Shown here: one piece after another, positions 47,683 through 52,044 of the stretch
How positions within the stretch are numbered: position 1 is the first letter of the stretch
How the letters are laid out: every line of letters begins with the position of its first letter
Assembly (NCBI RefSeq): GCF_900090105.1
Contig: NZ_FMDM01000014.1
Coordinates: 1-64,000, forward strand
From: Micromonospora humi
GTDB taxonomy: Bacteria; Actinomycetota; Actinomycetes; Mycobacteriales; Micromonosporaceae
Direction of reading: 5' to 3'
DNA length: 64,000 bases
Position numbers and translations under genes: made by a program
Notes under the pieces: generated by a model
Seen by the model: the letters and a program-made list of their open reading frames with translations, nothing else
Databases searched by the model: none
What the model was told of the DNA's origin: nothing

Positions 47683-48573
47683 TCACGCGGTCATGTGTGC
47701 GTAGACCACGATGTTGTTCAGGTAGCTGCCGGCGCTCCGGTCGAACACCCCGCCACAGGTGACCACCCGCAGGCCGGGCACGCCGGACGGTCCGTAGACC
47801 TGCTCCGCGGGAAAGGCGGTCTTCGGGTACGACCGGACCTCGTCCACGGTGAAGGTGGCGGTCGAGCCGTCCTGCCGGGAGACCGCGATGGTGTCGCCGC
47901 GCACCAGCGCACCGAGGTTGAAGAAGACCGCCGGGCCGAGCTTGGCGGAGTCGACGTGCCCGACCACCACCGCGTTGCCGACCTCACCGGGGCTGGCGCC
48001 GGGGGAGTACCAGCCCGCCTTCATCGCCTGGTCCAGCGGGGGCACCTGCACCGTGCCGTCCGGGTTGGTGCCGAGCGTCATGATCTCTGCGCGTACCCCG
48101 ATCCGGGGGATCGTGATGGTGGTCGGCGCCGATCGGGGCAGACCGACCGGCACGCCGCCGGCGCCCGCCGGGGAGCCGGGCGGCGCGGCCGGAGCGGCTC
48201 CGGCCGTGGCCGGCGGGACGGCTCCGCCCGGCGAGACCGCCGGCGTCTGCCCGGTCGGTGCCCCGGGGGTGGTGGGACCCGTCGACGGTGCGGGAACCGT
48301 CGGGGCCGGAGTGGTCGGGGGAGTCCAGTCCCACGGCGCGGCGGTCGCGACGTCCGCGTCGGGAACGCCGGCCGGATCGGCGGTGCCGGTCGGGCCGGCC
48401 TGCGCGATCGGCTGCGGCTGCGGCGGGGTGGGCGACGGCACGGTACGGACCGACGCGCCGATCAGGCCGGAGCCCACCATGGCGAGCAGGACGACGAGCG
48501 CCGCGCCGGCGGCACGCCACGGTCTCCCGTGACGGCCGCCGGCCCGGTTCGTCGTCCGGTCAGACCAGGTCAC
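47683..48573 (-). CDS. Class F-type sortase
   Basis: A 296-residue membrane-anchored transpeptidase. One N-terminal helix (ALVVLLAMVGSGLIGASV) is followed by a 110-residue Pro/Thr/Ala/Gly linker. The sortase barrel then begins TITIPRIGVRAEI and holds the catalytic His in VVVGHVDS and Cys in LRVVTCGG. The GTG start overlaps the end of the preceding surface-protein gene by 14 bases, so the two are co-expressed and that protein is the obvious substrate. Confidence 0.88.
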   Translation of the reverse strand: MTWSDRTTNRAGGRHGRPWRAAGAALVVLLAMVGSGLIGASVRTVPSPTPPQPQPIAQAGPTGTADPAGVPDADVATAAPWDWTPPTTPAPTVPAPSTGPTTPGAPTGQTPAVSPGGAVPPATAGAAPAAPPGSPAGAGGVPVGLPRSAPTTITIPRIGVRAEIMTLGTNPDGTVQVPPLDQAMKAGWYSPGASPGEVGNAVVVGHVDSAKLGPAVFFNLGALVRGDTIAVSRQDGSTATFTVDEVRSYPKTAFPAEQVYGPSGVPGLRVVTCGGVFDRSAGSYLNNIVVYAHMTA

Positions 48574-49756
48574 CGGCCCGCCGCCGGCGCAGCAGCACCA
48601 GCCCGCCCAGTGCGGCGGCACCGATCATGCCGGCGCCCCCGGTGGCGAGACCGCGGTCCAGACCGGTGCCGGCCATGCCGCCGTCACCGCCGTCGACCCC
48701 GCCGTGCGGCAGGACCACCAGTTCGCCCTCGCCGCAGGAGCCCCGCAGCTCGTAGCGGCCCGGGTGGACGTCCTTCCAGACGCTGGCCTCGCCGTAGTAG
48801 ACGAAGTCCTTGCCGTGCTCCCAGCCGGCCTCGTCGCCGCCGGAGCCGTACTCGTCCCCGCCCTGCCAGGCGTCGCCGCCCTGCCACTCGGCCCCGTGCT
48901 CGTCCTTGCCGTCCTTGCCGTACTCGTCCCCGGCCTCGGGGCCCTTGCCGTGGTCGTCCTTGGCCTCGGGGCCCTTGCCGTGCTCGTCCTTGGCCTCGGG
49001 GCCCTTGCCGTGCTCGTCCTTGGCCTCGGGGCCCTTGCCGTGCTCGTCCTTGGCCTCCGGGCCCTTGCCGTGGTCGTCCTTGCCGTCCGGGCCGTGCCCC
49101 TCCTTGCCGTCCTTGCCGTGCTCGTCGTCGGCCCAGTCGGCGGCGTCCCAGCCCGGCTCGGCGGCCTGGCCGTACTCCTCCGGGACCTGCAGGTCCGCAC
49201 CCTGGGCGGCGGGGTCGGCGGCGGCACCGGCACCCGTGCCGCCGGGCTGGGGCGCGTCGGCCGGCGGCTGCGGCATCCCCGCCTCGCCCGGCCCGTGCCC
49301 GTCCTTGCCCTGCTCGTCCTTGCCCTCGGGGGCCTTGCCGTCGGGGCCCTTGCCGTGGTCGTCCTTGCCCTGCTCGTCCTTGCCCTCCGGGCCCTTGCCG
49401 TGGTCGTCGCCGCCGTGCGCGTCCTTGCCGTCGGGACCCTGGTCCGCGTCGGCCCAGTCGCCACCACGATCGGCCCAGTCGGCGCCGTCGGCCCAGTCGC
49501 CGTGCTCGCCGTCGCGGGCCGGGTGCAGGTCGACCTTCCCGGTCACCTTCGACCAGACGTAGGCGTGCTCCTGAGGCTCGGAGCAGATCTGGAGCAGTTC
49601 CACGGTGTCGCCCGCCTTGACCACGTGCGGCTTGGCGATGACCTTGCCCTCGTCGTCGTGCCCGCCCGCGTAGGCCAGCCCTGGGGTGAACACGAGAAGG
49701 CCCGCGCCGCCGAGAGCGGCACCCGCGACGACCTTCCCGAGCATCTTCTTAGCCAT
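48560..49756 (-). CDS. Secreted repeat-rich surface protein, likely sortase substrate
   Basis: A 398-residue protein with a signal peptide (KKMLGKVVAGAALGG...LAYA). A first folded part (about 30-75, with CSEPQEHAYVW) precedes a long Asp/Gly/His/Lys-rich region with 10-residue repeats of the type DEHGKGPEAK. A second small Cys-containing part (VHPGRYELRGSCGEGE) follows. The C-terminus has GLATGGAGMIG, a hydrophobic helix and RRRR: a cell-wall sorting signal, with LATGG in place of a standard LPxTG or LAxTG. The charged repeats could bind metal ions; this is inference. The function is unknown. Confidence 0.82.
   Translation of the reverse strand: MAKKMLGKVVAGAALGGAGLLVFTPGLAYAGGHDDEGKVIAKPHVVKAGDTVELLQICSEPQEHAYVWSKVTGKVDLHPARDGEHGDWADGADWADRGGDWADADQGPDGKDAHGGDDHGKGPEGKDEQGKDDHGKGPDGKAPEGKDEQGKDGHGPGEAGMPQPPADAPQPGGTGAGAAADPAAQGADLQVPEEYGQAAEPGWDAADWADDEHGKDGKEGHGPDGKDDHGKGPEAKDEHGKGPEAKDEHGKGPEAKDEHGKGPEAKDDHGKGPEAGDEYGKDGKDEHGAEWQGGDAWQGGDEYGSGGDEAGWEHGKDFVYYGEASVWKDVHPGRYELRGSCGEGELVVLPHGGVDGGDGGMAGTGLDRGLATGGAGMIGAAALGGLVLLRRRRAGDLV
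48925..49100. repeat. 30-bp in-frame repeats in the surface-protein gene
   Basis: About five near-identical 30-base units encode DEHGKGPEAK or DDHGKGPEAK. A second, more diverged block with related KGPEGKDEQGK units lies at about 49310-49430. Copies differ by single bases, so the array looks recently expanded. Confidence 0.85.
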
Positions 49757-50241
49757 GAGCAGCGTCACTCCATCCCTGTTCGTCCTGAGCCCGACGTCAG
49801 TCGAGCTACCGCCGACGTTAGACCTTTTCGCGACTTATTCGGGGAAAGATTCGTTTTTAGGACTTTGCCGATGATGTGGCTTTCGCGCGTGCGGAGCGCC
49901 GCCGCGCCCGGTCTGGGCCTCGAAGAACCCGCTGCGCGGTAGGGTCGGGGAGGGCGTATCGAGGCATTGCCATGGAAGCGCTCCCATGCAAGAATCGCTG
50001 CACGCGGTTCGGGGAGCCACACCGCGAGCTCAGACGTCGAGGGCAACCGGCACCGCCGGACGACGTCCGCTCCTACGGCCGGTCCTGCGGACCGGTCGGC
50101 ACCACCACCCCCTCACGCCCGTCCGGGTCGGGCGTCCCCCGAAGCAACCCGTGGCGCGCACGGTCGATCCCGCAGGGCGACCGCCACCGCCATTCCGCCG
50201 GGCCGTACGCGGATCCGGTCTCGCCCAAGGAGATCAGTGGT
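49757..50241. other. 485-bp divergent regulatory region
   Basis: No gene is supported. The half next to the surface-protein gene is AT-rich for this genome and should hold its promoter. The other half has the CebR-type operator and a leader of about 250 bases before the cellulase gene. Confidence 0.65.
49973..49986. promoter_or_regulatory. CebR/CelR-type operator
   Basis: TGGAAGCGCTCCCA matches 13 of 14 positions of TGGGAGCGCTCCCA, the palindrome bound by the LacI-family repressors CelR (Thermobifida) and CebR (Streptomyces). These let go when cellobiose or cello-oligosaccharides bind. It is the only such site seen here and it precedes a cellulase gene. Confidence 0.85.
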
Positions 50242-52044
50242 ATGAATCTGTGGAGAAGGCTGTCCGGCCGGAGCCGGACGCTCGCGCTCACCGGCGCCGG
50301 CGTCCTCGTGGCCGGTGGGCTCGTGACCCTTCCGGTCACCGCGGCGCAGGCCGCGACCCAGTGCAGCGTGGAATACACCACCAACGACTGGGCCGGCGGC
50401 TTCACCGCCAGCGTGGTCATCAAGAACCTCGGTGACCCGGTCAGCTCGTGGAACCTCGGCTTCACGTTCCCGAACAGCAGCCAGCGCGTGCAGCAGGGCT
50501 GGTCGGCGAAGTGGACCCAGAGCGGCCAGAACGTCACCGCGCAGAACGAGTCCTACAACGGCTCGCTGGGCACCGGCGCCAGCACCAACATCGGGTTCAA
50601 CGGCGCCTGGAGCGGCAGCAACCCGAAGCCGACGCAGTTCACGCTGAACGGCACGGTCTGCAACGGCGGCACGCCGCCCACCAGCACGCCGCCCACGAGC
50701 ACCCCGCCGACCAGCACCCCGCCCACCAGCACCCCGCCGACCAGCACGCCGCCCACGAGCACGCCGCCCACCAGCACCCCGCCGGGGCAGAAGGTGGACA
50801 ACCCCTTCGTCGGGGTCAAGGGCTACGTGAACCCGGAGTGGAAGGCCAAGGCCGAGTCGGTCGCCGGCGGCAGCCGGGTGTCGAACAACCCGACCGCGGT
50901 CTGGATCGACCGGATCGCCGCCATCAACGGCACCCCGGACAGCAGCTCCAACGGCGCGATGGGGGTCAAGGCACACCTGGACGCCGCGCTCGCCCAGGGC
51001 GCCGGCTACATCCAGTTCGTCATCTACAACCTGCCCGGCCGGGACTGCTCCGCGCTCGCCTCGAACGGTGAGCTGGGCCCGAACGAGCTGCCCCGCTACA
51101 AGGCCGAGTACATCGACCCGATCGCCGCGATCCAGGGCGACGCGAAGTACAAGAACCTGCGGATCGTCAACATCATCGAGATCGACTCGCTGCCCAACCT
51201 GGTGACCAACACCTCGGGCAACCCGGGCGGCACCGCGATGTGCGACACGGTCAAGGCCAACGGCGCGTACGTCAACGGCGTGGGCTACGCCCTGGCCAAG
51301 CTCGGCGCCATCGGCAACGTCTACAACTACATCGACGCCGGCCACCACGGCTGGCTCGGCTGGGACAGCAACTTCGGCCCGGTCGCCGACCAGCTCAAGG
51401 CCGCCGCCGTCGCGTCCGGCAGCACCGTGCACAACGTGCAGGGCTTCATCACCAACACGGCGAACTACTCCGCGCTCAAGGAGCCGTACGTCAAGATCAC
51501 CGACTCGGTGAACGGCCAGACCGTGCGGCAGTCCAAGTGGGTCGACTGGAACATGTACGTCGACGAGCTCTCGTTCGCCCAGGCCTTCCGGCAGAAGCTG
51601 GTCTCGATCGGCTTCGACAGCAACATCGGCATGCTGATCGACACCTCCCGCAACGGCTGGGGCGGCGCCGCCCGACCCACCGGACCTGGCCCGTCGACCT
51701 CGGTGGACGCCTACGTCGACGGTGGTCGGATCGACCGTCGCTTCCACGCCGGCAACTGGTGCAACCAGGCGGGTGCGGGCCTCGGCGAGCGGCCGAAGGC
51801 GGCGCCGGAGTCCGGCATCGACGCCTACGTCTGGGTGAAGCCCCCGGGTGAGTCGGACGGCTCCAGCAAGGAGATCCCGAACAACGAGGGCAAGGGCTTC
51901 GACCGGATGTGCGACCCGACGTACACCGGCAACGCCCGCAACGGGAACAGCATGTCCGGCGCCCTGCCGGACGCGCCGATCTCCGGCGCCTGGTTCCCGG
52001 CCCAGTTCGCGCAGCTGATGCAGAACGCCTACCCGGCGCTCTGA
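50242..52044 (+). CDS. Secreted GH6 cellulase (cellobiohydrolase) with CBM2
   Basis: A 600-residue secreted enzyme. A signal peptide (to about residue 40, ending AAQA) is followed by a family 2 cellulose-binding module (about 41-140, CSVEYTTNDW to GTVCNG). A linker of seven TSTPP repeats leads to a GH6 catalytic domain (about 180-600). IYNLPGRDCSALAS carries the catalytic acid region and EIDSLPNLVTN and WVKPPGESDG the other conserved parts. The domain length and loops fit an exo-acting cellobiohydrolase better than a short endoglucanase. A CebR-type operator upstream implies induction by cello-oligosaccharides. Confidence 0.95.
   Translation: MNLWRRLSGRSRTLALTGAGVLVAGGLVTLPVTAAQAATQCSVEYTTNDWAGGFTASVVIKNLGDPVSSWNLGFTFPNSSQRVQQGWSAKWTQSGQNVTAQNESYNGSLGTGASTNIGFNGAWSGSNPKPTQFTLNGTVCNGGTPPTSTPPTSTPPTSTPPTSTPPTSTPPTSTPPTSTPPGQKVDNPFVGVKGYVNPEWKAKAESVAGGSRVSNNPTAVWIDRIAAINGTPDSSSNGAMGVKAHLDAALAQGAGYIQFVIYNLPGRDCSALASNGELGPNELPRYKAEYIDPIAAIQGDAKYKNLRIVNIIEIDSLPNLVTNTSGNPGGTAMCDTVKANGAYVNGVGYALAKLGAIGNVYNYIDAGHHGWLGWDSNFGPVADQLKAAAVASGSTVHNVQGFITNTANYSALKEPYVKITDSVNGQTVRQSKWVDWNMYVDELSFAQAFRQKLVSIGFDSNIGMLIDTSRNGWGGAARPTGPGPSTSVDAYVDGGRIDRRFHAGNWCNQAGAGLGERPKAAPESGIDAYVWVKPPGESDGSSKEIPNNEGKGFDRMCDPTYTGNARNGNSMSGALPDAPISGAWFPAQFAQLMQNAYPAL
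50675..50785. repeat. 15-bp in-frame repeats encoding the cellulase linker
   Basis: Seven units of about 15 bases (ACCAGCACGCCGCCC and variants) encode TSTPP. The linker separates the binding module from the catalytic domain. Confidence 0.85.

Follow-up and report, generated by a model that had tools for sequence, protein, structure and literature searches.

The part that class F sortases play in physiology has been stated to be unknown (PMC13251363). In Actinoplanes missouriensis, deletion of all four class F sortases produced no sporangium phenotype (PMC13251363), from which it follows that the function of these enzymes may be subtle. SrtF of P. acnes, the single member of the class to have been examined in vitro, was reported to use the motif LPQTGE (PMC7451113). 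Two A. missouriensis proteins, AMIS_11010 and AMIS_36440, are encoded beside srtF1 and srtF4, respectively, and carry no known pentapeptide; proteins beside two class F sortases of this species were set aside because a known motif was not seen (PMC13251363). In the same organism, a sortase attaches the disordered protein SspA to the wall, and SspA is required for the sporangium matrix (PMC13293333). Both class F sortases and a C-terminal signal of the GVDTG type are already catalogued by NCBI, and thus the locus described below does not represent a new kind of system; in the open-access literature, no paper treating GVDTG as a sorting motif was found. Repetitive sequence in sortase substrates is familiar from the staphylococcal Sdr proteins, LPXTG proteins in which an acidic, tandem, low-complexity region forms a linear stalk between the domain and the anchor.

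The stretch of DNA analysed here (the window, 64,000 nucleotides) belongs to contig C25, from a Micromonospora-type genome of 6.66 Mb, and carries a two-gene locus with genes for a glutamate dehydrogenase and a cellulase as its neighbours. The first gene (48560-49756, minus strand, as are all features of the pair given below) starts with ATG and encodes a surface protein of 398 amino acids, while the second (47683-48573) starts with GTG and encodes a sortase of 296 amino acids. The GTG codon is positioned 14 nucleotides inside the 3' end of the surface protein gene, in agreement with an earlier note on this DNA that had placed the sortase start within the last codons of its neighbour. That note had also described a signal peptide and tandem DEHGKGPEAK repeats in the surface protein, and both are plain in the sequence and in tandem-repeat (TRF) output. 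The N-terminus, MAKKMLGKVVAGAALGGAGLLVFTPGLAYA, is signal-peptide-like, with two lysines, a hydrophobic core and the sequence LAYA (residues 1-30, 49667-49756); the region is kept by all orthologues, and cleavage would be expected after AYA. At the other end, residues 371-398 (48563-48646) form a hydrophobic stretch followed by an RRRR tail, with GAAALGG..LRRRR conserved. Neither ORF is a product of chance, given the orthologues in the same genus and the kept start of the sortase gene.

The sortase is assigned to class F, as it scores 205.3 bits with NF033748 (curated cut-off, 166 bits), the best-scoring of all the sortase models; the class E and class D models score 25.4 and 13.6 bits, respectively. 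Sortases rely on a triad of histidine, cysteine and arginine, and the corresponding residues are found in their expected sequence contexts, namely His206 (GHVD), Cys273 (VVTCGG) and Arg279 (FDR), the last being the probable third catalytic residue. Among solved sortases, 5utt is the only one recovered by sequence (E 0.61); matches to dPPR designed-repeat proteins score better, look spurious, and were discarded. The class F model has seven matches in this genome, of which five exceed the cut-off.

All 37 same-genus genomes that were searched encode the surface protein, and the 24 genomes searched in the order's other families gave no instance of it. The 76 loci of a GTDB genome scan belong to Micromonospora (including Verrucosispora), with one in Salinispora and one in a genome named only to family, and more distant homologues of the surface protein are carried by other genera of the family. 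The earlier note had offered to abandon its sortase-substrate pairing should the gene pair be absent from relatives. Instead, the pair occurs throughout the genus and in several further genera of its family, it is conserved with its overlap, and in places it has been duplicated as a unit. The sortase start codon precedes the end of the surface protein gene by 14 or 17 nucleotides in 66 of the 67 orthologous loci for which both ends are readable. This constancy points to translational coupling of the two products.

Linkage by itself could have a more mundane origin. The hydrophobic stretch at its C-terminus might simply retain the surface protein in the membrane without any sorting, the sortase serving other substrates and sitting beside it through operon inertia. 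The genus neighbourhood is indeed fixed, in that 45 of 45 long loci keep the glutamate dehydrogenase end and 44 of 45 have a cellulase relative nearby, so that linkage of the pair within the genus is partly plain synteny. Against an unsorted, membrane-held protein, which is judged improbable, stand an overlap held to 14 or 17 nucleotides, two genomes of another genus (loci L216 and L217) in which the pair is tandemly duplicated with each copy overlapping, and the different partner proteins that adjoin other class F sortases and bear the same glycine-rich motif (see below). In L216 and L217, one copy has a long charged loop and the other a short Pro/Gln-rich loop, and in a tree the sortases group by the loop type of the adjoining copy, the rows having been given to the two kinds of copy by order of encounter in the script. 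The duplications, together with the occurrences in other genera, are stronger evidence that substrate and sortase belong together than is linkage within the genus. At one further locus of another genus (L218), a 145-aa ORF for a short homologue retains a signal peptide, a GWVDGGAGG motif and a tail, seemingly having lost the beta-domain described below, and is followed by a sortase frame.

If the sortase acts on its neighbour, the sequence at which it does so is of particular concern. The earlier note had seen a sorting-signal-like end built on the unusual pentapeptide LATGG. This site lies in a variable stretch and takes 14 forms in 69 orthologues (LATGG in 28, LAAGG in 11, LATAG in 9, MAAGG in 5, LATTG in 2, and others), and LATGG was rejected as a sorting signal because of this poor conservation. 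Upstream of it lies a conserved motif, GVDGGDGG, which is exact in 50 of 69 orthologues, the remainder being near variants such as HVDGGDGG, HVEGGDGG and GVKAGDGG; none of the 69 departs from it at the valine or at the positions of the final G-x-G-G. The sorting motif is therefore likely to be the conserved P-x-G-G-V-D-G-G-D-G-G rather than LATGG, and is proposed to correspond in this protein to P-H-G-G-V-D-G-G-D-G-G at residues 350-360 (48677-48709). The alignment to the NCBI model for GVDTG proteins, NF058571 (GVDTG_CTERM), begins at residue 350, such that the GVDTG core falls on G353-V354-D355-G356-G357.

A different reading of the LATGG site is that it represents a degenerate LAXTG signal for a housekeeping class E sortase, in which case the neighbouring class F sortase would not be the cognate enzyme. 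For instance, the class E sortase of A. missouriensis anchors LPVTG proteins (PMC13251363), and the LATTG found in two of the 69 orthologues does fit LAXTG. Yet the surface protein is not matched by the LPXTG anchor model, the conserved pentapeptide expected of an LPXTG or LAXTG substrate is lacking at a site so variable, and what is conserved in its place is the GVDGG motif and the overlap with a class F gene, all of which makes involvement of a class E enzyme very unlikely indeed. The preferred candidate thus remains the glycine-rich motif, at which transpeptidation by the overlapping class F sortase would take place.

The arrangement of this C-terminus is that of GVDTG proteins, with the motif, a hydrophobic stretch and a basic tail following in that order beside a class F sortase. 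The points of difference are GVDGG in place of GVDTG, a long insert between the motif and the hydrophobic stretch, and a borderline score to NF058571 (24.9 bits by hmmscan and 29.9 in the genome search, with a cut-off of 29); many orthologues score over the cut-off. Of 55 matches to the GVDTG model in 31 genomes, 44 are located no more than 1.5 kb from a class F sortase, the expected number being about 0.1. In the same genome as the window, the partners of class F sortases on contigs C17 and C22 and at 145 kb on C25 each give a weak match to the GVDTG model at the same place. The pattern P-x-G-[GAS]-[VA]-x-[TAG]-G-x-G-[GS], composed after the tails had been seen, occurs in 29 of 32 distinct tails of proteins adjoining other class F sortases of the order, against 0.8 in shuffled sequences. 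In a tree of 92 sortase domains, the sortases cluster by the type of neighbouring partner, with 25 label changes as opposed to 56 in shuffles. Within the clade of this pair, several of the rows given as 'other' are members of the same partner family that escaped the label rule; the clade itself has only moderate support (84/78). On contig C18 (locus L095 of G000), a weaker class F-like sortase stands beside a 276-aa protein ending in APGGVPSGTGGQAG, which has no NCBIfam match though its motif looks alike.

Compared with the described systems, the substrate encoded by the overlapping gene here differs from that of P. acnes SrtF in lacking LPXTG and in carrying GVDGG instead. A further resemblance, drawn by description only, is to AMIS_11010 and AMIS_36440, which likewise have a signal peptide, a C-terminal hydrophobic stretch, a basic tail and a class F neighbour.

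In the AlphaFold model, made from a single alignment of 58 sequences from close relatives, 72 residues, lying in two stretches (approximately 39-80 and 318-350) that together comprise eight strands, have a pLDDT of 90 or more. The N-terminal half of this beta-sandwich (residues 37-81, 49514-49648) has a pLDDT of about 95 over residues 41-80 and contains the invariant Cys58, and the C-terminal half (residues 315-351, 48704-48814) has a pLDDT of 95-97 over residues 321-350 and contains the invariant Cys341. By contrast, pLDDT falls below 50 nearly throughout residues 89-314 and 357-398. With two confident halves flanking residues 89-314, the repeat region is predicted to be an inter-strand loop, and the model as a whole predicts a small beta-sandwich directly before the anchor with a loop of approximately 230 residues inserted within it.

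Support for a split domain also comes from a relative. A second class F sortase, about 97 kb away on the same contig (G000:C25:145561-146010, locus L093), has a partner of 170 amino acids with a GPATGGGG motif. When a profile of 52 orthologues with the loop deleted was compared with this uninterrupted relative by hhalign, the two aligned with 96% probability (E 4.6e-9) over 70 collinear columns that span the junction, whereas a control in which the halves had been exchanged aligned by its N-terminal half alone (70%). Collinear, and with their two cysteines in register, the proteins belong to the same small beta-domain family, of which the 170-aa partner carries the uninterrupted form. The class F sortase on C17 has a 161-aa partner whose two cysteines and similar length are suggestive by eye; hhalign gives only 4%, and homology to it is not claimed. 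Because Cys58 and Cys341 are invariant among orthologues and in register with the two cysteines of the relative, a disulfide between them that closes the loop is likely. A Foldseek search against the PDB returned only weak, non-significant matches to Ig-like domains (E of at least 0.18), on which no fold was assigned.

The loop itself (residues 82-314, 48815-49513) is acidic and predicted to be disordered, and contains two repeat blocks. The DEHGKGPEAK array (48913-49093) consists of a 30-bp unit in 6.0 copies with 94% matches (TRF score 299), and the second, more diverged block (49293-49440) shows periods of 15, 45 and 60 bp. In 59 Micromonospora orthologues, the loop is 122-304 residues long, with a net charge of -14 to -62 (median -34), 20-41% Asp plus Glu, and a median of 0.4% VILMF. 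The repetitive and highly charged nature attributed to the protein by the earlier note is thus borne out by the repeat arrays and the loop composition alike. Its suggestion that the number of blocks varies holds in part, in that the repeat unit, the period and the length differ between species, and the loop sequence is not conserved. The search for the repeat in other genomes that had been proposed as a check found DEHGKGPEAK in one of 59 orthologues, namely that of the window itself, so that this unit does not define a conserved repeat family. As for the stretchable wall layer that had been envisaged, this reading of the repeats, like that of a linear stalk, was dropped in the face of the split-domain prediction and the homology to the relative, since both ends of the repeat region are predicted to return to one folded domain before the anchor. 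This is also where the protein departs from Sdr-type LPXTG proteins, with which it shares an acidic, tandemly repeated, low-complexity region in a sortase substrate; here, the repeats are predicted to form a loop inside a domain that abuts the anchor. What SspA would have in common with it is disorder and attachment to the wall through a sortase, although SspA is anchored by the class E enzyme SrtE, has 191 amino acids, and is predicted to be disordered over its whole mature part with no folded domain.

Outside the genus, the composition of the loop is less uniform. The second copy in L217 has a Pro/Gln-rich loop with little charge and no histidine, and the loops of L222 and L226 are of mixed composition. 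In L227 (G150:C1:4464000-4468000), the loop is made of HHHDKKWDDKKHFEH-like (HHHDKK) repeats, is 25% histidine and near neutral. In Salinispora vitiensis (L154), the protein has 702 amino acids and a much longer loop with YESKGHDYKG and GGWGSESE repeats. The trait common to the family is a hydrophilic, repeat-prone insert, and members of the genus have a negative charge in common as well; an anionic brush is accordingly a genus-level reading, as the loops of the L217 second copy and of L227 are not anionic.

The histidine content bears on the proposal that the loop is a metal store or sponge, binding Zn, Ni, Cu or Ca at the wall through its His-, Asp- and Glu-rich sequence for storage, uptake or protection. 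Histidine is enriched in the loop (1.9-10.5% within the genus, median 5.2%), acidic residues are plentiful, and Corynebacterium diphtheriae has cell-wall zinc-binding proteins with HxD/HxH motifs (PMC12445094). Across the family, however, histidine ranges from 0 to 25%, and homologous loops with 0-2% (the L217 second copy, L216 and L222) are left unexplained by metal binding. No conserved metal-ligand motif or spacing was found in the loops, whose units differ between species, the DEHGKGPEAK unit being private to one; and the neighbours of the pair are the dehydrogenase and the cellulase, with no adjacent metal transporter or regulator. Metal storage as the purpose of the loop therefore has a small chance of being correct, and ion or metal binding, as put forward in the earlier note, is unsupported as a common function. 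Binding of metal by particular His-/Asp-rich repeats is possible, above all in L227-like homologues, and L227 is the best member of the family in which to test it.

One element of the loop is more constant than its surroundings. A mid-loop motif, GGTGAGAAA followed by D (residues 172-181, 49217-49243), conforms to GGxGxGxAAD, which is present in a loose form in 53 of 60 orthologues and in a strict form in 32 of 60, with a mean of 0.98 in shuffled sequences, and occurs in some other genera too. Its persistence amid a drifting loop would suit a specific binding tentacle, in which GGxGxGxAAD recruits a polysaccharide, an enzyme or a spore-coat protein and the repeats are mere flanking spacers; the dependence of the A. 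missouriensis sporangium matrix on SspA lends this some precedent. The motif is nevertheless short and glycine-rich, it is missing from some homologues (L154 and L222, for example), and any partner is putative, such that a dedicated tentacle is given a modest chance. Rather than a tentacle, the most economical reading is a hydrated brush, because the composition of the loop is conserved while its sequence is not.

Upstream of the surface protein gene, a putative leader or promoter region (49757-49870) is strongly conserved, with 77% mean column identity in 32 orthologues. This leader of approximately 110 nucleotides contains a small hairpin with two covarying pairs, a related sequence precedes homologues in other genera, and an Rfam search of it gave no match. 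Separately, TGGAAGCGCTCCCA is found at 49973-49986 (no strand assigned), upstream of a secreted cellulase-like gene (50242-52044, plus strand), and differs by one base from TGGGAGCGCTCCCA, which we take to be the CebR-type palindrome.

The observed gene pair, with its class F sortase, split domain, predicted disorder, conserved motif and variable loop, is in our view rather probably a two-gene module, in which a surface protein is paired with a dedicated class F sortase and displays a hydrated, anionic, looped brush. The signal peptide would export the surface protein, and the hydrophobic stretch and RRRR tail would hold it in the membrane until the sortase encoded by the overlapping gene cuts within GVDGG(DGG), by analogy at GVDG|G, and joins it covalently to peptidoglycan. 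The small beta-sandwich would then be presented directly on the anchor, with one inter-strand loop grown into a disordered, repeat-built and strongly anionic chain of approximately 230 residues, the two ends of which would be held together by the domain and probably also by the Cys58-Cys341 disulfide. Less firmly than these steps, the loop may provide the cell or spore with a hydrated polyelectrolyte brush on its surface, for which the exact loop sequence would be of little matter, with the central GGxGxGxAAD possibly serving as a docking site.

A broader proposal is offered more tentatively, and is somewhat less likely than not. Many actinobacterial class F sortases would serve a single neighbouring substrate through P-x-G-G-V-x-x-G-x-G-G and not LPXTG, and in the Micromonosporaceae pair an inter-strand loop of an Ig-like domain would have become a disulfide-closed, repeat-expanding, wall-fixed, looped polyelectrolyte brush. 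No description of the GVDGG variant, of the genus-wide overlapping pair, or of a split domain with a freely evolving loop was found in the open-access literature. The gene pair offers a way into a group of sortases that is still poorly understood, since the motif in the neighbours of class F sortases and the genus-wide overlapping arrangement make the question of class F substrates directly testable at the bench. The split domain, with its freely evolving loop, would in turn offer a natural scaffold on which a wall could present repetitive, disordered sequence, of interest both for surface engineering and for understanding how repeats can expand without breaking a fold.
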